The translations under genes were made by a program, and so were the position numbers. From positions 1-45,567 of the forward strand of contig PXYT01000026.1 of NCBI GenBank assembly GCA_003023725.1: a DNA stretch of 45,567 nucleotides, in the 5' to 3' direction. Numbering within the stretch: position 1 is the stretch's first letter; every line of letters begins with the position of its first letter. The notes below the pieces were generated by a model. That model was given only the letters and a program-made list of their open reading frames with translations. It was not told where the DNA came from and made no database searches. Source of the stretch: Sulfobacillus benefaciens. GTDB taxonomy: Bacteria > Bacillota > Sulfobacillia > Sulfobacillales > Sulfobacillaceae. Positions 5,257 through 25,581 of this stretch are shown piece after piece.

Positions 5257-6717
5257 TTGTCTAAACCCATTATTGTAGCCTTGCGGCGCGATTTTCGGCT
5301 GGACGACAATCCGGCTCTTTATCACGCCGCAGAAGAAGGACAAGTGATCCCGGTTTACGTGCTGGACGAGAGCGCGGCACCCCCAGTGCAATCCGCCAGT
5401 TTTTGGTGGCTGATCCAAAGTCTTAAATCCCTGTCCCTGCGCCTTGCGGACCGGGGTGTCTCGCTAATCTTGCGGCGCGGCCAATATGCTGTGGTGCTAG
5501 CCAACCTCGCCGCAAGTATCGGCGCCTACAGCGTATTCTGGAATGAGGGGATTTTCCCCGGCGAAAAAAAACAAGACGAACAGCTCAGGCACCGGCTCTC
5601 TCAACATAGTGTGCCCTTCCGAGTCTTCCCGGCCAATTATTCGAGTGTTTTCGGGACAGTAATGACTCAGCAAAATACGCCTTACCGTTTGTATTCGCCG
5701 TTCTTTCAGCAAGTCCTGTCAATCTTGCGGGAACAAACCCCGAGGGTGCTGCCCGCTCCTGGCGATATCAAGGGTTTTGGGGTCATTCCCAGTGACAGCG
5801 TGAGATCCTGGGAATCAGACGCTTCCTTGAACTCGGGCAAGCTGGCTCTGTACTGGCAACCCGGGGAGGAGCACCAAAGGGCCCATTGGCAACATTTTTT
5901 GGAAACCAGTGTGGAACAGTATGATTCCCGTGGAACCTATGACAACGAACGAGGATCATCCAAACTTTCCGGTGCATTGCACTTTGGCGAAATCAGCATT
6001 CGCCGGGTTATGAAAGATCTTGTAGACCACTACGATGTGCTCAATGGAACCCGTCAGGTGCCGCCCGGTATTCAGACTTTCTTTAAACAACTTATGTGGC
6101 GGGAATTCTCGGCCTACCTGCTGTATCACTTTCCGTCTTTGGCAGACACCCCTGCCGACCGGGACTGGATTAGCTTCCCCTGGAGGCATGCTCCGAAATC
6201 TCTCAAATCCTGGCAAGAGGGCCACAGTGGCTATCCGATCATCGATGCGGGAATGCGTCAATTGCGGCAAATGGGATGGATACCCAATCGCATCCGTATG
6301 ATCGTGGCCAGCTTTCTTGTTAAGGATCTCCTCATTTCGTGGCAGGAAGGCGCCAAATGGTTTCGTGAGCGTCTTGTCGACGCCGATGAAGCCAGCAACG
6401 GCGTATCCTGGCAGTGGATTAGCGGCACGGGTTTTGACCATATTCCATTCTTCCGGATTTATAATCCTGTGACCCAGTCTCACAAATTCGATTCAACCGG
6501 CGATTACATCAGAATGTGGATCCCCGAACTGGCCAAACTTCCTCTCTCGCTCCTCCATGCTCCCTGGCAAGCTCCCCGGGATGTCCTGGAATCCTTTGGG
6601 GTTCACCTGGGCGACAATTATCCCCTGCGCATCGTCCACCATGAGCATGCCCGTCAGCGAGCGCTCAACAGCTATGCGGAATGGAAAAAACCAGCAACCG
6701 AATCTGGAAGCGACTAA
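5257..6717 (+). CDS. phr: Deoxyribodipyrimidine photolyase (class I type)
   Basis: A 486-residue light-driven DNA repair flavoprotein that reverses cyclobutane pyrimidine dimers. It begins at TTG with AAAGGAG eleven bases upstream. The N-terminal antenna domain (about 1-130) starts IIVALRRDFRLDDNPALYHA. The FAD domain carries WREFSAYLLYHFP near 285-297, the adenine-contacting region GYPIIDAGMRQLRQMGWIPNRIRM near 325-348, and WQWISGTGFDHIPFFRIYNP near 400-420. The order and length match class I photolyases. Cryptochrome-like function is less likely in this setting. The next gene follows after 63 bases. Confidence 0.93.
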   Translation: MSKPIIVALRRDFRLDDNPALYHAAEEGQVIPVYVLDESAAPPVQSASFWWLIQSLKSLSLRLADRGVSLILRRGQYAVVLANLAASIGAYSVFWNEGIFPGEKKQDEQLRHRLSQHSVPFRVFPANYSSVFGTVMTQQNTPYRLYSPFFQQVLSILREQTPRVLPAPGDIKGFGVIPSDSVRSWESDASLNSGKLALYWQPGEEHQRAHWQHFLETSVEQYDSRGTYDNERGSSKLSGALHFGEISIRRVMKDLVDHYDVLNGTRQVPPGIQTFFKQLMWREFSAYLLYHFPSLADTPADRDWISFPWRHAPKSLKSWQEGHSGYPIIDAGMRQLRQMGWIPNRIRMIVASFLVKDLLISWQEGAKWFRERLVDADEASNGVSWQWISGTGFDHIPFFRIYNPVTQSHKFDSTGDYIRMWIPELAKLPLSLLHAPWQAPRDVLESFGVHLGDNYPLRIVHHEHARQRALNSYAEWKKPATESGSD

Positions 6718-6780
6718 TCCCTTCTCGACGCATATCCCCGGGGAAAGTGACACATGTTATCGCTGTGGTGATGAGACGCA

Positions 6781-7953
6781 ATGACAAAACACGGATGGAT
6801 CAGTGGACTGGCCCTGGTGCTATCAACAGCCGCAACGGCCCCACACCATATTACGCCCACGCCCCTGACCCCAAACGAGCAGCACATCAAACAAATTCTG
6901 CACAACCTGGTGACACGGGAAGACAATGCCATTATCACCGGTCACAAGGCTGATTTACGGTCGATCATTCTTCCCCATTCAGATGCCCTGGCCAGAGCCG
7001 AGAAACGTGCGCGTTACCTCAAAGTCTGGGCCACATCCCGCGGCCTCGACGTGCGGGGCATCACGATCAGCCTGAGGACTCCGCATATTCGGTTCGTGGG
7101 TCGCGGACGGGTTAATATCTTTGGCGTGGTTGGTGAATCCTACCGTGTCACAAAGAAAAATGCCGCCCCCGTCAAAGATGCACCGGATGATCGGTTCGGT
7201 CTCGGCGTCCGGCACGATTATGTGCTGGTGAAAGAACGCGGGCAATGGTTCATTGCCTCCGATGACTTCACCGACCCATTGAACCAAGACACCCGGCTTT
7301 TGCATCAGGCTCTCCCCGCCCAAGGATCTGTTCAGGCGCACCCGCCCGCCATTTCCTCGCGCGGGGCCGAGAAGGCGGTTCAATATGCCAATACCTATTG
7401 CGGATCCGCACCGGGATGCGGCAATGACCGCTATTATAACAGCGATTACACCAGCTACAACGGAGAGGGAGGAGATTGCACGAATTTCGTGTCGCAAGCC
7501 CTTCACGCGGGAGGATTCTTGATGAGTCCGCATTGGGAATATTCCCAGGCCAGGGGGGAAGGAAGTCCTGCATGGGTCAATGCCGATCGTCTGAAGGACT
7601 TTTTGGAATCCTCCGGCCACGCCACTCTTTACGCGTCCGGACCATACAATAAACTCACCCGGCCCCTTCCCCGGTTTCCCGACGGAGCCGTGAATGCGTT
7701 GCGGCCGGGCGATCTCATCAGTTACGTTGAAGGCCACCGGGCCGTTCATACCGCCATTGTCGTCGGTTATGACACCTTGGGATTCCCCGTCGTTGACACG
7801 CACACATCGGACCGTTACCGGGTTCCCTGGGACTTGGGGTGGGACCGCCGCACGATTTATGATTTATGGCATGTCCATTATCCCCGTTCAGTTGTGTTCC
7901 GCACCTCGTCCCCCCGTTCCCCGGGGACGGGAGACATCATGAACCATAGGTGA
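6781..7953 (+). CDS. Secreted protein with amidase (Amidase_6) domain
   Basis: A 390-residue protein with a weak N-terminal export signal (MTKHGWISGLALVLSTAATA). Residues about 20-185 form a variable domain. From about 197 the C-terminal half matches the putative amidase domain of Firmicutes: AVQYANTYCG, YNGEGGDCTNFVSQALHAGG with the likely nucleophile Cys, a later HTAIVVGYD His motif, and DTHTSDRY. This NlpC/P60-related fold usually cuts peptide or amide bonds at the cell surface. The ribosome site is weak. The last 76 bases overlap the convergent acylase gene. Confidence 0.8.
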   Translation: MTKHGWISGLALVLSTAATAPHHITPTPLTPNEQHIKQILHNLVTREDNAIITGHKADLRSIILPHSDALARAEKRARYLKVWATSRGLDVRGITISLRTPHIRFVGRGRVNIFGVVGESYRVTKKNAAPVKDAPDDRFGLGVRHDYVLVKERGQWFIASDDFTDPLNQDTRLLHQALPAQGSVQAHPPAISSRGAEKAVQYANTYCGSAPGCGNDRYYNSDYTSYNGEGGDCTNFVSQALHAGGFLMSPHWEYSQARGEGSPAWVNADRLKDFLESSGHATLYASGPYNKLTRPLPRFPDGAVNALRPGDLISYVEGHRAVHTAIVVGYDTLGFPVVDTHTSDRYRVPWDLGWDRRTIYDLWHVHYPRSVVFRTSSPRSPGTGDIMNHR

Positions 7954-10229
7954 GTCGGCATGCCAGGGCCAAGCGGAAAATATTCGCCCCGGAGATAAGG
8001 GAGGACGAGATTGTCATAGTGGGACGATAGTGGATGTCCGGACTGACCTGTCAAGTGAATGCCCACCGATTCCACGGGAGTCGACAGATCCATGATTTGG
8101 CGGTAACTAGGCATGAACGCCACCGGCCTCGGCCAAGGCAGATTCGGCTCCAGAGCAAACGCTGTCTGCAACGGAGTATACAAGTCCCCCGGCATAGGTA
8201 ACATCCGGCGAGCAAATAGCGGCGCCAAAATTTTCACATCGCCAAACGGATGAAAAAGCCGGACTTTATGTGCCCGTCCCCAGGCCCAATGTCCGGATGT
8301 GGAGCCAAAGTGCTTGTGAAGCCATTCCTGGGCTTTAGTGATGGCCTGCGTGATATCCAGTTCGTGCCAGTGCGTTAGAACGGCGGGAATCAAACGCTCC
8401 CCCAAAAGGCTCCACCAGGTCTCGGGGTAGGGGTGGGTTCCCGGCAATCCTGGCCGGATGTCCCGAAAAAACGGAGTGTCAAGACGCCGGCGAATGGGTT
8501 CCGGAACACTGGCCAGAGCAAACAAGTAGAGTATGGTAGGCGCCGCACTGTCTATAGTCACCTGACCATGAAAGTCCTGGAGGGTCTCACGCCATTCAGA
8601 AGGAATTTTCGTTTCTCGCAGTTTTTTTGCGAGTTGATCTAACGGTTCCGAATAGACATCCAGCTGTATAGTCCGAAAAGTGTCTTTGGAATGTCTGGGC
8701 ACCCGTTCAATGAGCTCCTGAATGCGCCGGGCACGCGTTCCCAGAGCATAGCGGCCAAAAAGAGGAACCTCCGCCTCGTCACCCACCACCGGATTATTGG
8801 CACTGACAATATATCCCCTATCCGGATCGAAGATCCGGGGCATTTGCGTCCATTCAACCCATCCCGACCACCGGTATTTTTCGGTGTTCCCATCCACAAC
8901 TCCCCGCCAGGGGCCATTTTCGCGCATAGGCACCCGCCCCGCGGCAATGTATCCGATATGTCCAGCGCTATCACCGTAGACGAAATTCTGGGCAGGAACC
9001 CACCATTCCGCCAAAGCGGTGTTGAATGTCTCCCAGTCATGGGCACGGTCAAGGCGCAATACCGCCTGCGCCAGAGGCAGGGGTTGAAAACCCGCCCATG
9101 CCATCGCGATGTGGTGGTTCTGGTCTTCCGAGTAGATCACTGGGCCCCATTTCGTGTCGTAGCAACTCAGCTTTTCATCCTCTTGCCCCCGCACGTGAAT
9201 GATTTCCTCGCGCTGCACAATGGTTTCCATCTTGTCGTCAACGCGGTAATGCACCTGGTCCGATTCCATCCTAATTCGGTACAAATCCTGAACATCGGGG
9301 TCAATATTGGTCACACCCCAGGCAATATACTGATTTTGGCCAATGACAATGCCAGGAGCCCCCGGCAGAGATGCTCCAAAAACGTGCAGCGCCCCACCTT
9401 CTAAAAACATTTCATACCAAATGGACGGCAATTGCGGCATCAAATGCGGATCATTGGCTAGTAGCGGTCCCCCGGTTTCCGAATGGTTTCCGTCAACCAC
9501 CCAATTGTTGGATCCGACTCCGATACTGCCCCAGGCCTCATAACGTCCCGTATCGGGAACAATGGTGGGCGCTGTCATATTGATTGCACCAAACAGCCAT
9601 TCCCGAACAACCTCGTCGGTATCGGATCCGAGCTGATCGCTGATCCACTTGGCATGCCATATCGAATTAAGGGACCAAGCCAGTTGATAAGCGACGGCAT
9701 TGGTGTCCTCGACCGTCCAGGGCCGCAAATGTCCTTTTAAAAAACGGTATTCGGGAGGCAAAGGCTGAGTGGAAAAAGCATAATTGATCCCCTCAACATA
9801 GGACTGAACATATTCCTTGGTATTGTCCGACCAGGTGCCGACAGCTTCTTTGGCCCAGTGCGCAATATGAAGCTTGCGCATGAAACGGTCAAACACCAAA
9901 GTTTTGGGTCCCAGCAGTTCAGCGAGCTGCCCTAATGGCAGCCGCCTGGACAAATCCATCTGAAAAGCCCGTTCACGGCCATGAATAAACCCTTGCACAA
10001 ACAAGGCGTCCTTCATACTCCCCGCCTGAACATGCGGCACCCCGACATCGTCACGAGTGATTTCTACCGGCCCCTCCAAGTGCTCCGAAAAAATTTCCTG
10101 AGGAAGTTTTTGCACGGGCTTGAGCATTCCCAGCCACCGGAACAAGTGACTGGTCCTCCGGAAACCATGTAACCAGAAGGGATAGTGAAATGAGAGCGCA
10201 TCCATTTCATTGACATGCGACTTACGCAT
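7878..10229 (-). CDS. Penicillin acylase family N-terminal nucleophile hydrolase
   Basis: A 783-residue amidohydrolase precursor. The alpha-subunit region includes DDVGVPHVQA near 60-69 and GRERAFQMDLSRRLPLGQLAELLG near 84-107. The autocatalytic cleavage site is GSNNWVVDG with Ser240 as the future N-terminal nucleophile of the beta subunit, followed by GGPLLANDPHL. The family cleaves amides of penicillins, acyl-homoserine lactones or other N-acyl compounds; substrate is not evident. GAGGTG precedes the ATG. No clear signal peptide is seen, unlike many family members, so a cytoplasmic location is possible. Its 3' end overlaps the convergent amidase gene. Confidence 0.88.
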   Translation of the reverse strand: MRKSHVNEMDALSFHYPFWLHGFRRTSHLFRWLGMLKPVQKLPQEIFSEHLEGPVEITRDDVGVPHVQAGSMKDALFVQGFIHGRERAFQMDLSRRLPLGQLAELLGPKTLVFDRFMRKLHIAHWAKEAVGTWSDNTKEYVQSYVEGINYAFSTQPLPPEYRFLKGHLRPWTVEDTNAVAYQLAWSLNSIWHAKWISDQLGSDTDEVVREWLFGAINMTAPTIVPDTGRYEAWGSIGVGSNNWVVDGNHSETGGPLLANDPHLMPQLPSIWYEMFLEGGALHVFGASLPGAPGIVIGQNQYIAWGVTNIDPDVQDLYRIRMESDQVHYRVDDKMETIVQREEIIHVRGQEDEKLSCYDTKWGPVIYSEDQNHHIAMAWAGFQPLPLAQAVLRLDRAHDWETFNTALAEWWVPAQNFVYGDSAGHIGYIAAGRVPMRENGPWRGVVDGNTEKYRWSGWVEWTQMPRIFDPDRGYIVSANNPVVGDEAEVPLFGRYALGTRARRIQELIERVPRHSKDTFRTIQLDVYSEPLDQLAKKLRETKIPSEWRETLQDFHGQVTIDSAAPTILYLFALASVPEPIRRRLDTPFFRDIRPGLPGTHPYPETWWSLLGERLIPAVLTHWHELDITQAITKAQEWLHKHFGSTSGHWAWGRAHKVRLFHPFGDVKILAPLFARRMLPMPGDLYTPLQTAFALEPNLPWPRPVAFMPSYRQIMDLSTPVESVGIHLTGQSGHPLSSHYDNLVLPYLRGEYFPLGPGMPTHLWFMMSPVPGERGDEVRNTTERG

Positions 10230-21866: not shown

Positions 21867-22886
21867 ATGTCCACTATCGATCTGTTTGCCATACAGCCTT
21901 ACATGACTCTTGCCGATTATGCCACGACAAGTCAATTTTACCATAAAATGGATATTATCATGCAACGTATTGCCTCGAGGCGAGATCCCCATATTCCCGC
22001 TCTGGCGGTCTTCCCGGAAGATCTGGCAACGTTTTTAGTGTTATCGGACAATTTGAACCTCATTAGCGGTGCCGCTACCATGGACGAAGCCTTTTCACGT
22101 ATCGGGCGAAAATTGTGGCCGTCCTTATTGGAACAAATGCTTAGTCACCACACCTTGTCCTTGCGGCAAGCGTTTTTCCTTTTGACTGCCCCCAAGGTCT
22201 GGCGCGTTTGGCACAGTACCATGAGCCGCCTGGCCCGCCAATACGAGGTCTATCTCGTAGCCGGCAGTGCCTTGCTTCCCGAAAACGCCAGAGGCTACCA
22301 ATCCGAAACGTTTACCTCCCATTCAAACCGTATATTTAACTTTAGCATGACAATCAATCCTTCGGGGGATGTTATTCACACCACGCGCAAGGTAAACTTG
22401 GTTCCCACTCAGGAAGATACGCTGGATTTATCGTCGGGGTCATTGAGCAACGCCCTCCAATCCTTCACCATTGACAACGTCTTGTGTGCCACCGCCATTT
22501 GTTATGACGGCTTCCGAATTCCCCACACATCCCGAGAGCCTCGTTTTACCCCGTTATTGCCATTGATGGATCAACAGGGCGTTCGCATTGTCGCCCAGCC
22601 ATCGGCCAATCCCTGGTGGTGGAACGAACCCTGGCCCTTTAATCCCCGCCTCACTCGGAGAGAACAATGGACCAAGGAAGGCGCTTTCAGTCTGCTCACG
22701 CAGTTCACAAACATTTCGGTCATTGTCAATCCTCAGCTGTTGTTCCACGCGTTGGACATTCATTTTGACGGTCCCAGTGCAATTTACGGCAGGATCGGCT
22801 CCCAGGCAGCCGTGCTTGCCCAAAGCTCGTTTATTGATCCCCTTCCCTCCTCCGAAGATATTGTATGGTTTCGCTGGTCCGAATGA
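21867..22886 (+). CDS. Carbon-nitrogen hydrolase (nitrilase superfamily)
   Basis: A 339-residue enzyme with the complete Glu-Lys-Cys triad: Glu51 in AVFPEDLAT, Lys175 in RKVNLVPTQED and Cys212 in TAICYDGFR. The fold cleaves nitrile or amide bonds or transfers acyl groups. About 70 residues between strand 2 and the Lys motif are longer than usual and predicted helical (LLEQMLSHHTLSLRQAFFL). GGGGAG lies upstream of the ATG. The next gene also has a nitrilase fold but lacks the Cys, so a paired function is possible. Confidence 0.85.
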   Translation: MSTIDLFAIQPYMTLADYATTSQFYHKMDIIMQRIASRRDPHIPALAVFPEDLATFLVLSDNLNLISGAATMDEAFSRIGRKLWPSLLEQMLSHHTLSLRQAFFLLTAPKVWRVWHSTMSRLARQYEVYLVAGSALLPENARGYQSETFTSHSNRIFNFSMTINPSGDVIHTTRKVNLVPTQEDTLDLSSGSLSNALQSFTIDNVLCATAICYDGFRIPHTSREPRFTPLLPLMDQQGVRIVAQPSANPWWWNEPWPFNPRLTRREQWTKEGAFSLLTQFTNISVIVNPQLLFHALDIHFDGPSAIYGRIGSQAAVLAQSSFIDPLPSSEDIVWFRWSE

Positions 22887-23225
22887 ATTGCCATTTTCTG
22901 CCTTTTAGAGTATGATGTTTCTCATGGAGAGCGAGCCCGGTGGATTTGCCAAAAATAGGCTGAGAGGAAAGTTCAACTAAAGTAAACGGCAGGATGAAAA
23001 TCCTTCTGTTCCACAAAGTTCCAGGTATTTCAAGAGGCAAGAGCATCCCGTAGCAAGTCGGTCCTTAACTCGAATAAAGGCCAGATGCAGCGTGGAAAAC
23101 TTCTTCCCTGTTCCTCGGGATTTTGGGCGTACCAATGACGTAAGAATAGTCTCATCCAGTCGGAACCCGTCACCGCCCAATAGGACGATAGGAGTGAGGG
23201 CAAAACGAATCGAGGAGGAGTCGCC
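22887..23225. other. Intergenic region between the two nitrilase-fold genes
   Basis: A 340-base gap with no supported plus-strand gene. A minus-strand frame ending at 23030 reads SDWMRLFLRHWYAQNPEEQG, which looks protein-like, but it overlaps the start of the next gene by 23 bases and has no good ribosome site. It may be gene debris or chance. Confidence 0.3.
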
Positions 23226-24722
23226 ATGCCTGTTCCCCGTATCGCCATTTGTCAGATAGTTTACCTGCGCGAGCTGGACAAAGCTCTTGCTCGTGCCAAG
23301 GAGTCTATACGCCAAGCCGCCAGCCGGGGGGCGGACATTGTCGTGTTCCCGGAATGGTTTTTGGGATTGAATCCGGTGGAAGTCATACCCAATCGCTTCA
23401 CGGACACTCTGAGCCTAATGGCCCGAGAACTCGGTCTCATGATTGTCACCGGCAGTCTCAGGGTGCTGGACAACGAGACGATTAAAAAACAGCAGAAAGG
23501 CCTCGTTATTGACCAGGATGGAACCATTGTCGGAACCCAAACCAAGATGACGTTTCAGCCGACCGAGCGCCCCTGGTTTGAGCCTGGACCCGGAATTTCC
23601 GCGATCCACACCCGTTTCGGACGTCTCATCATCCTTCTGGGACTTGATGCGCTGGATAGGGCGTTATGGGACTCTGCCCGTGGCTTTCAGCCAGACATTG
23701 TGGTGATGGCCACGAGCCCGCGCAATGTAGCCGAACAAAACGAACTGCAGGACTTGGCCATCAATCATAGTCTTGATATCCAGGGCACAGTCCTCGTGGC
23801 TCCCTTTCTCGGACGGTTTTCCGGACAGAATTACATCGGCGGAGCGGTGATAGCCCATCAGGGAAGGCTGGTGAGCATGGCGGGAGAGGACCCAACTTTG
23901 CTAATGGCCGAAGATCCCCAAGCCCCTTTAATTCAACTCGGAGTGAGCGACATCTCGTACTACATCCCTTTAGCCAGTGTTCCGCCGGGGCTTAAAACAT
24001 TTGCCCGCAGGGCAAAGGAACCCGAAGCCGAAAAGAAGATTTTGTTGGACTGGGGAGCCAACATGCTGAGCGACCCGTCCTACATCGGCCGTCAGCTACT
24101 TGCTGCCGTCCAAGACAATCCCCGCTGGCTGGCATTGGCACCAGGCAACCCGGGACAGGCCTCTCAACTGCAATCCCTGCTGGATGCCGGGGCTGCCGGA
24201 ACTTTTCTCTATCCGGCCCTAAGCCGTCATATGCCTTACGACGAGGACGTATTGTCACTCGCACCCGTGATTAACCGCTTTAAACGACCGGTTTTGATTC
24301 ATACCGGTCCAGGTCCGGCACCGCTGAGATTGGAAAGGCCGCTGTTCTGGGACGAATTTCTTCAGGAAATTCACGAAACTCCAGTGATTATGGTGCACTC
24401 CGGCGTTCTTTCCCCATTTTGGGACGAGGTCATCATGCTGGCGATGCGTTATCCCCATGTTTTTTTGGAAACGTCCTTGATTTCCCTGGAACTTTTGCAA
24501 CGAACACTCAATGCGATTGGCTCATCCCGCCTCATTTTCGGTAGCGGCGGCGCAGAGAGTCACTTTCTGGATGAATGGCAAAAACTCGAGTCGCTGAAAC
24601 CATTGCTGGCGGCGGCCGAATGGATCGAACTCGCCGGGCAAAGAGCCAAGGGTTTGTTCTTTGATTCCCCGGGGTCCCACGGCAGCCACAAACTATCCGT
24701 TGTACGCCGGCAACCAGGGTGA
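23226..24722 (+). CDS. Nitrilase-fold / amidohydrolase-fold fusion, both apparently inactive
   Basis: A 498-residue protein behind a strong GAGGAGGAG site. Residues 1-260 have a nitrilase fold: Glu43 (VFPEW) and Lys107 (TKMTF) are kept, but the nucleophile Cys position in the elbow motif is Gly139 (LLGLDALD). Residues about 270-480 resemble an amidohydrolase of the Amidohydro_2 type: His359 (IHTGPGPAP) and His391 (MVHSG) are kept, but the N-terminal HxH is DWG near 275 and the late GTD metal Asp is GSGG at 439-442. The arrangement suggests two non-catalytic domains used for binding or regulation. Alternatively the second domain uses other metal ligands. It follows an intact nitrilase-family gene. 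Confidence 0.7.
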   Translation: MPVPRIAICQIVYLRELDKALARAKESIRQAASRGADIVVFPEWFLGLNPVEVIPNRFTDTLSLMARELGLMIVTGSLRVLDNETIKKQQKGLVIDQDGTIVGTQTKMTFQPTERPWFEPGPGISAIHTRFGRLIILLGLDALDRALWDSARGFQPDIVVMATSPRNVAEQNELQDLAINHSLDIQGTVLVAPFLGRFSGQNYIGGAVIAHQGRLVSMAGEDPTLLMAEDPQAPLIQLGVSDISYYIPLASVPPGLKTFARRAKEPEAEKKILLDWGANMLSDPSYIGRQLLAAVQDNPRWLALAPGNPGQASQLQSLLDAGAAGTFLYPALSRHMPYDEDVLSLAPVINRFKRPVLIHTGPGPAPLRLERPLFWDEFLQEIHETPVIMVHSGVLSPFWDEVIMLAMRYPHVFLETSLISLELLQRTLNAIGSSRLIFGSGGAESHFLDEWQKLESLKPLLAAAEWIELAGQRAKGLFFDSPGSHGSHKLSVVRRQPG

Positions 24723-24927: not shown

Positions 24928-24967
24928 GTTCTCTTTGACTTCTGCCGGTTGCGGTATAATAGAGAAC
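24928..24967. promoter_or_regulatory. GTTCTC/GAGAAC repeats around the HNH gene promoter
   Basis: GTTCTCT (24928-24934) and AGAGAAC (24961-24967) form an inverted repeat that brackets TATAAT (24955-24960). GAACTCAT also occurs twice upstream, near 24828 and 24918. TTGACT at 24935-24940 is only 14 bases from the TATAAT, so the -35 is not certain. This looks like the control region of the HNH gene. Confidence 0.45.
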
Positions 24968-24981
24968 CAAGGAGGTTTAGG

Positions 24982-25581
24982 ATGGGTATGGAAGAGTCGC
25001 TCTTGGAAAAAGTTCCGGTGGTGGATTTACGGGGACAGATGTTGTCGCCATGCAGTTGGGCAAAAGCGGAGCAAAACCTTCGCGACGGACTAGCCCGCTT
25101 GATCGATGGAGTACTTCATCTTAACTACCGCCCTTTGGCTTACCGCAAGATCTACCGCCTAGTGCGCCGGCGCGATGGTTTAATCTGCGCATGGTGCCAT
25201 GGTCCCGGTTCGACCTTAGAGCATGTGTTGCCGATTTCGTGGGGCGGACGCACGACTCCGGATAACTGCGTTATCGCCTGTCGTGCGTGCAACCACTCCC
25301 GAAATAATGCGCTGCCCTCGCAGTTCATTGCCTGGACAGGATATAAACCCAGCCATCCGGTTATTCTTAAAATTTTACACAACGAAGAGGAATCCCTGTT
25401 AAAAGCCAAGCTGTCACTGCGAACACGCCCGATTCAGTCGTGTGCCAGCAAAGAAGAGGCGCAAATCTGGGTCTCTTTCCGGCAAGGCATGTTTGATACC
25501 TCAAGACCCAAACCGCCGTCGGAACCCGTCAGCCGTTTCCACCCTGAGACAGGGCCCTTTTTACAGTTTTTCGTTCCATAG
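24982..25581 (+). CDS. HNH endonuclease
   Basis: A 199-residue protein starting at ATG 24982 with AAGGAGG six bases upstream; the frame is open earlier but overlaps the TATAAT element. The HNH core lies at about 64-108: Cys69 and Cys72 (ICAWC), His81 (EHVLPIS), Asn95 (PDNC) and Cys100, Cys103 and Asn104 (CRACN). The two CxxC pairs bind a structural zinc and the histidines form the metal-dependent nuclease site. No phage genes surround it, so it may be a stand-alone nuclease, DNA-repair or defence enzyme. Confidence 0.85.
   Translation: MGMEESLLEKVPVVDLRGQMLSPCSWAKAEQNLRDGLARLIDGVLHLNYRPLAYRKIYRLVRRRDGLICAWCHGPGSTLEHVLPISWGGRTTPDNCVIACRACNHSRNNALPSQFIAWTGYKPSHPVILKILHNEEESLLKAKLSLRTRPIQSCASKEEAQIWVSFRQGMFDTSRPKPPSEPVSRFHPETGPFLQFFVP

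Follow-up and report, generated by a model that had tools for sequence, protein, structure and literature searches.

Pseudoenzymes are known chiefly from eukaryotic signaling, where they act as regulators. In characterized nitrilases, the nucleophile is a Cys. A nitrilase domain can also be joined to a second domain, as in NitFhit, where the partner is the Fhit nucleotide-binding domain and the nitrilase Cys is kept. We analyzed a gene from Sulfobacillus benefaciens, P0001, which lies in a 45,567-nucleotide stretch of DNA (the window). Like NitFhit (1ems), its product joins a nitrilase domain to an unrelated domain, but here the partner is an amidohydrolase-like barrel and the nitrilase Cys is absent. 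Nit2 (2w1v), Nit3 (1f89), an aliphatic amidase (2uxy), and PH0642 (1j31) resemble the nitrilase half of P0001 in fold, Glu-Lys-Glu pocket, and domain length. In contrast to the nitrilases of PF00795, with their nucleophile Cys, all P0001 members in the order carry Gly at that position. The second half shares the TIM-barrel fold with Amidohydro_2 proteins (3cjp, 3irs, and intact relatives of 240-311 aa in the phylum, L098-L106), and the beta5 and beta6 His residues recur in many, though not all, P0001 members. Unlike Amidohydro_2 proteins, P0001 has no DxHxH, carries Gly in place of the late Asp, and has its barrel fused behind a nitrilase domain. A literature search of incomplete coverage found no paper describing a nitrilase-superfamily pseudoenzyme of this kind.

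Domain architecture and active sites of P0001

The P0001 reading frame encodes 498 aa, and its ATG is closely preceded by an AGGAGGA ribosome site. The gene and its landmarks are located in the window as follows.

23226-24722, forward strand: P0001, the predicted double-pseudoenzyme gene, stop included (37 homologues in the order plus one copy cut by a contig end)
23226-23948, forward strand: nitrilase-fold half, residues 1-241 (PF00795, alignment to solved nitrilases, fold match)
23919-24665, forward strand: amidohydrolase-fold half, residues about 232-480 (PF04909, barrel-only model against 3cjp_A)
23640-23642, forward strand: codon of Gly139, at the nucleophile Cys position (alignments and invariance)
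24546-24548, forward strand: codon of Gly441, which replaces the late metal-ligand Asp (FGSD to FGSG)

An earlier note, made from this DNA alone, had proposed a fusion of a nitrilase fold with an amidohydrolase fold, and both assignments held. Pfam placed residues 5-134 in PF00795 (57.2 bits; curated cutoff, 23.2) and residues 295-440 in PF04909, or Amidohydro_2 (40.7 bits; curated cutoff, 26.4), and structure searches recovered both folds. The whole-protein model, predicted from an input alignment of 8 sequences, was of medium confidence (mean pLDDT, 64.7; pTM, 0.46). In this model, the fold of residues 1-241 matched nitrilases at Z about 17-18, and that of residues 261-480 matched amidohydrolases (3cjp_A, Z = 18.3). 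Modeled alone, the barrel half was predicted better than in the full-length protein (pLDDT, 73.5; pTM, 0.77), and its match to 3cjp_A began at residue 232 (Z = 17.9). Profile-profile comparison of the barrel with its intact relatives gave a probability of 99.8%.

We scored residue conservation in 36-37 homologues of 41-100% identity, of which 36 cover the nitrilase sites and Gly441 and 37 cover the barrel His residues. When aligned to solved nitrilases (Nit3, Nit2, and the aliphatic amidase), P0001 has Gly139 where these enzymes have their nucleophile Cys, so that the earlier reading of a pocket with Glu43 and Lys107 kept and the Cys replaced was upheld. The pocket also retains Glu114, the second Glu of the active site, which that reading did not include. 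Glu43, Lys107, Glu114, Gly139, and Asp141 were each invariant (36/36); against a background of 36 invariant columns out of 241, the chance of four named columns in this half all being invariant was about 4e-4. Further invariant residues of the pocket region were W44, N49-P50, R57, R79, Q89-Q90, and W117-F118. The possibility that a Cys lies elsewhere in the protein was also considered: a search of the whole family alignment found no conserved Cys column.

The barrel half likewise agreed with the earlier description of two retained His residues and a missing HxH and late Asp. Alignment to intact relatives identified H359 and H391 as the beta5 and beta6 His residues. The first was present in 30 of 37 homologues and the second in 20, with Ser at that position in 15. 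Because these residues drift, the second pocket does not appear to be a kept metal site. The late metal Asp of strand 8 was Gly441 in 36/36 homologues versus Asp in 10/10 intact relatives. No His was found in the DxHxH columns in any of three alignment modes, the first-strand region of the model being of low confidence. We rejected the segment D275-W-G-A-N as a degenerate DxHxH, since local profile alignment puts residues 265 onward on strand 2 and places the first barrel strand upstream, near residues 236-238.

Distribution, selection, and genomic neighborhood

Of the 42 genomes of the order (the Sulfobacillus group), 38 carry the fusion, and these span 15/15 genera. A P0001 match was obtained in 37 of these genomes; in the 38th (G018), the gene start is visible at a contig end. 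P0001 was single copy in the S. benefaciens source genome and across the order. Among the genomes without an intact copy, G036 has decayed fragments only and G013, G028, and G030 have none; G028 and G030 are assemblies of 63-71% completeness. The homology search for the fusion was made within the phylum, where 398 sampled genomes yielded it in only three, all of the same order; the others matched one domain. When one genome per species was scanned with a peptide pattern, a method that detects only close relatives, seven loci were returned, in Sulfobacillus harzensis and six other Bacillota assemblies. A phage or plasmid origin was rejected, as there were 0 PHROG or phage matches and two Agrobacterium plasmids gave weak, single-domain matches only.

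Every homologue of the fusion in the order has lost the catalytic positions (36/36 at both Gly139 and Gly441). P0001 had dN/dS values of 0.051-0.057 in two within-genus pairs and 0.10 in a pair from another genus, one member of which had lost the P0002 neighbor described below. For P0002, dN/dS was 0.10-0.14; the double pseudoenzyme is more constrained than its intact neighbor. The double loss of active sites proposed in the earlier note thus stands, with a conserved fusion and dN/dS of 0.05-0.10. As judged from sequence, P0001 is a maintained double pseudoenzyme that has lost both canonical active sites and is under strong purifying selection. Its near order-wide, single-copy presence and tight constraint suggest that the protein has a binding or regulatory function and is not decaying.

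Two genes flank P0001 on the same strand.

21867-22886, forward strand: P0002, intact nitrilase-superfamily enzyme and candidate partner (339 aa; E51, K175, E183, C212)
24949-25581, forward strand: HNH-endonuclease-like gene, a frequent syntenic neighbor downstream, with no evident functional link to P0001

The Glu-Lys-Glu-Cys residues of P0002 were kept in 26/26 aligned copies, with one row gapped at E51, which confirms that an intact nitrilase lies just upstream. A close P0002 homologue was present in 35/42 genomes of the order, and G023 adds a weak match. In 27 of the 34 genomes with both genes (G018 counted in), and in all three families, P0002 lies upstream of P0001 on the same strand and within about 0.5 kb. 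In five others the spacing is 2.4-7.5 kb, still on the same strand, and in the remaining two the genes are on different contigs. The P0002-P0001 adjacency is ancestral to the order. Four genomes have P0001 without an intact P0002: G008, G015, and G023 keep it without a close P0002, and in G010 P0002 is in pieces (L111, about 6845-8033) and P0001 is intact. Conversely, G036 has P0001 in pieces (L107, about 6554-7113) beside an intact P0002. The association between the presence of the two genes had a nominal P of 0.011, which became 0.24 after removal of two incomplete genomes that lack both.

The earlier note had suggested that P0001 may regulate the upstream enzyme and had asked whether the two co-occur. 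For co-occurrence, the adjacency holds, but four genomes with P0001 lack an intact P0002 and one shows the reverse. For regulation, the ancestral adjacency speaks in favor, and the syntenic surroundings and the solitary decay of each gene speak against. Since each gene persists in genomes where the other is not intact, the pairing is not obligate and a strict pair is excluded. Moreover, the whole neighborhood is fairly syntenic among genomes of the order for other genes too, so the two genes may have stayed adjacent by descent and not through selection. A partnership between P0001 and P0002 is plausible but not obligate.

The genes are separated by 339 bases (22887-23225), compared with 378 bases in the nearest relative, and the two gaps resemble each other at their ends only. 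A leader RNA in this interval was rejected, given 0 Rfam matches at the gathering threshold and no conservation of the gap in the nearest relative. The HNH-endonuclease-like gene directly follows P0001 in many genomes of the order. In several genera belonging to two families, a urocanase gene adjoins P0002 upstream, in divergent orientation (for example, L108, 4154-5857; L107, 3388-5178). We discarded a link to histidine breakdown, as the urocanase gene is on another contig in this genome and is missing from other genomes that keep P0001.

Tandem nitrilase proteins of the class

Outside the order, the nitrilase half of P0001 had its best relative in L119, a 547-aa protein that carries two nitrilase domains, the second of which gave the match. 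A class-wide search recovered further proteins of this type.

L119, 1031-2674, reverse strand: tandem nitrilase, 547 aa
L121, 834-2459, forward strand: tandem nitrilase from the class-wide search
L122-L140: further tandem nitrilases, spread over many genera of the class

We treated 19 sequences as tandem, some with open frames that exceed the homologous region and two Pfam-checked for the second domain. After alignment, the first domain had the Cys in 18/19 proteins; the second had it in 0/19, with Gly there in 13/19. Two tandem proteins tested against NCBIfam hit no model above cutoff. In L126 (G055), the first domain also lacks the Cys (VLGGD), and both domains look inactive.

The tandem proteins are thus like P0001 in having a Cys-less nitrilase domain, but the partner of that domain is an active nitrilase and not a barrel. 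Pfam finds one nitrilase domain and one barrel in P0001, hence no two-nitrilase chain. Like P0001, the second domain of L119 combines an intact Glu-Lys-Glu with Gly at the Cys site; in the Cys-less second domains of tandem proteins, these three residues are often lost. In a maximum-likelihood tree, sequences of the P0001 nitrilase half grouped together with full support, on a long branch, but showed no supported grouping with P0002 or with tandem second domains. Neither a constraint joining it to tandem second domains (p-AU = 0.145) nor one joining it to P0002 (p-AU = 0.163) was rejected. From these data, a common origin of the Cys loss in P0001 and the tandem proteins is neither favored nor rejected. 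An origin from a tandem first domain was disfavored (p-AU = 0.042, from few replicates).

A proposed binding role for P0001

We tentatively favor the reading that P0001 is a noncatalytic subunit that binds an amide or carboxylate and possibly co-assembles with an active nitrilase. The Glu-Lys-Glu pocket of its nitrilase half would position an amide or acid, and Gly in place of Cys would bar the usual covalent chemistry. With the nucleophile replaced and Glu-Lys-Glu kept, the pocket most likely binds without cutting and would hold a small amide or carboxylate as a natural substrate trap or ligand sensor. The metal-less barrel may be a scaffold or a second binding module. Like other nitrilases, P0001 would probably dimerize or oligomerize through the nitrilase fold; where P0002 is present, it may join the assembly, and P0001 may adjust its activity or specificity. 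We infer ligand binding, oligomerization, and partnership with P0002, with amide binding in particular suggested by the invariant Glu-Lys-Glu. According to their structure titles, engineered Cys-to-Ala amidases have been crystallized with intact glutaramide (6ypa), butyramide (4izs), and nicotinamide (5ny7), which indicates that a nitrilase pocket can bind without the Cys. Grass nitrilases require heterocomplexes. When inactive C182A subunits of plant nitrilases are mixed with active ones, they shift the substrate preference of the active subunits, passing on their own (PMC6214922). Together with these precedents, a binding, co-assembling subunit is the most economical reading of P0001.

Other accounts of P0001 fit parts of the same evidence. 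If the protein were mainly structural or an assembly factor, with both folds serving as scaffolds, neither pocket binding a physiological ligand, and the pocket residues kept for folding, the drift of the remaining barrel His residues would be expected, and invariant Gly at the former catalytic positions 139 and 441 would fit packing roles. However, folding rarely requires polar pocket residues such as this Glu, Lys, and Glu, and their invariance here contrasts with their frequent loss in tandem second domains that likewise lack the Cys; we consider this account unlikely, though not far-fetched. Slightly less probable is an enzyme with changed chemistry, in which Glu-Lys-Glu directly activates a water molecule or bound cofactor, as in a hydratase, lyase, or substrate-assisted hydrolase. 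The entire pocket region is invariant, as an active site would be, and some pseudoenzymes prove active via migrated residues (PMC10211241). Against this, a conserved Cys is absent throughout the family, and Cys replacement is the standard inactivating mutation, C182A having been used as the inactive form (PMC6214922).

That P0001 is a dedicated, obligate subunit needed for P0002 activity would account for the same-strand adjacency across three families, but it is hard to reconcile with G036 and G010, in each of which one partner has decayed alone, and with the three genomes that retain P0001 without a close P0002, and we regard it as improbable. Although the absence of both catalytic sites could indicate a decaying gene or an annotation artifact, the low dN/dS, the presence in 15 genera, and the invariant pocket refute this idea almost completely. 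The binding subunit that we favor could be extended into a bolder and rather unlikely scheme: an order-wide natural substrate-trap receptor whose Cys-to-Gly pocket and metal-free barrel would sense an amide and, through mixed assembly, switch an active nitrilase, the tandem proteins being a parallel one-chain version in related families.

P0001 combines two apparently dead hydrolases of different superfamilies, one with its pocket frozen and the other with its site abandoned, in a bacterial protein that is maintained. It therefore provides a clean case for asking why a dead C-N hydrolase is retained. The tandem active/dead proteins suggest that dead nitrilase domains may be a recurrent partner of active ones.
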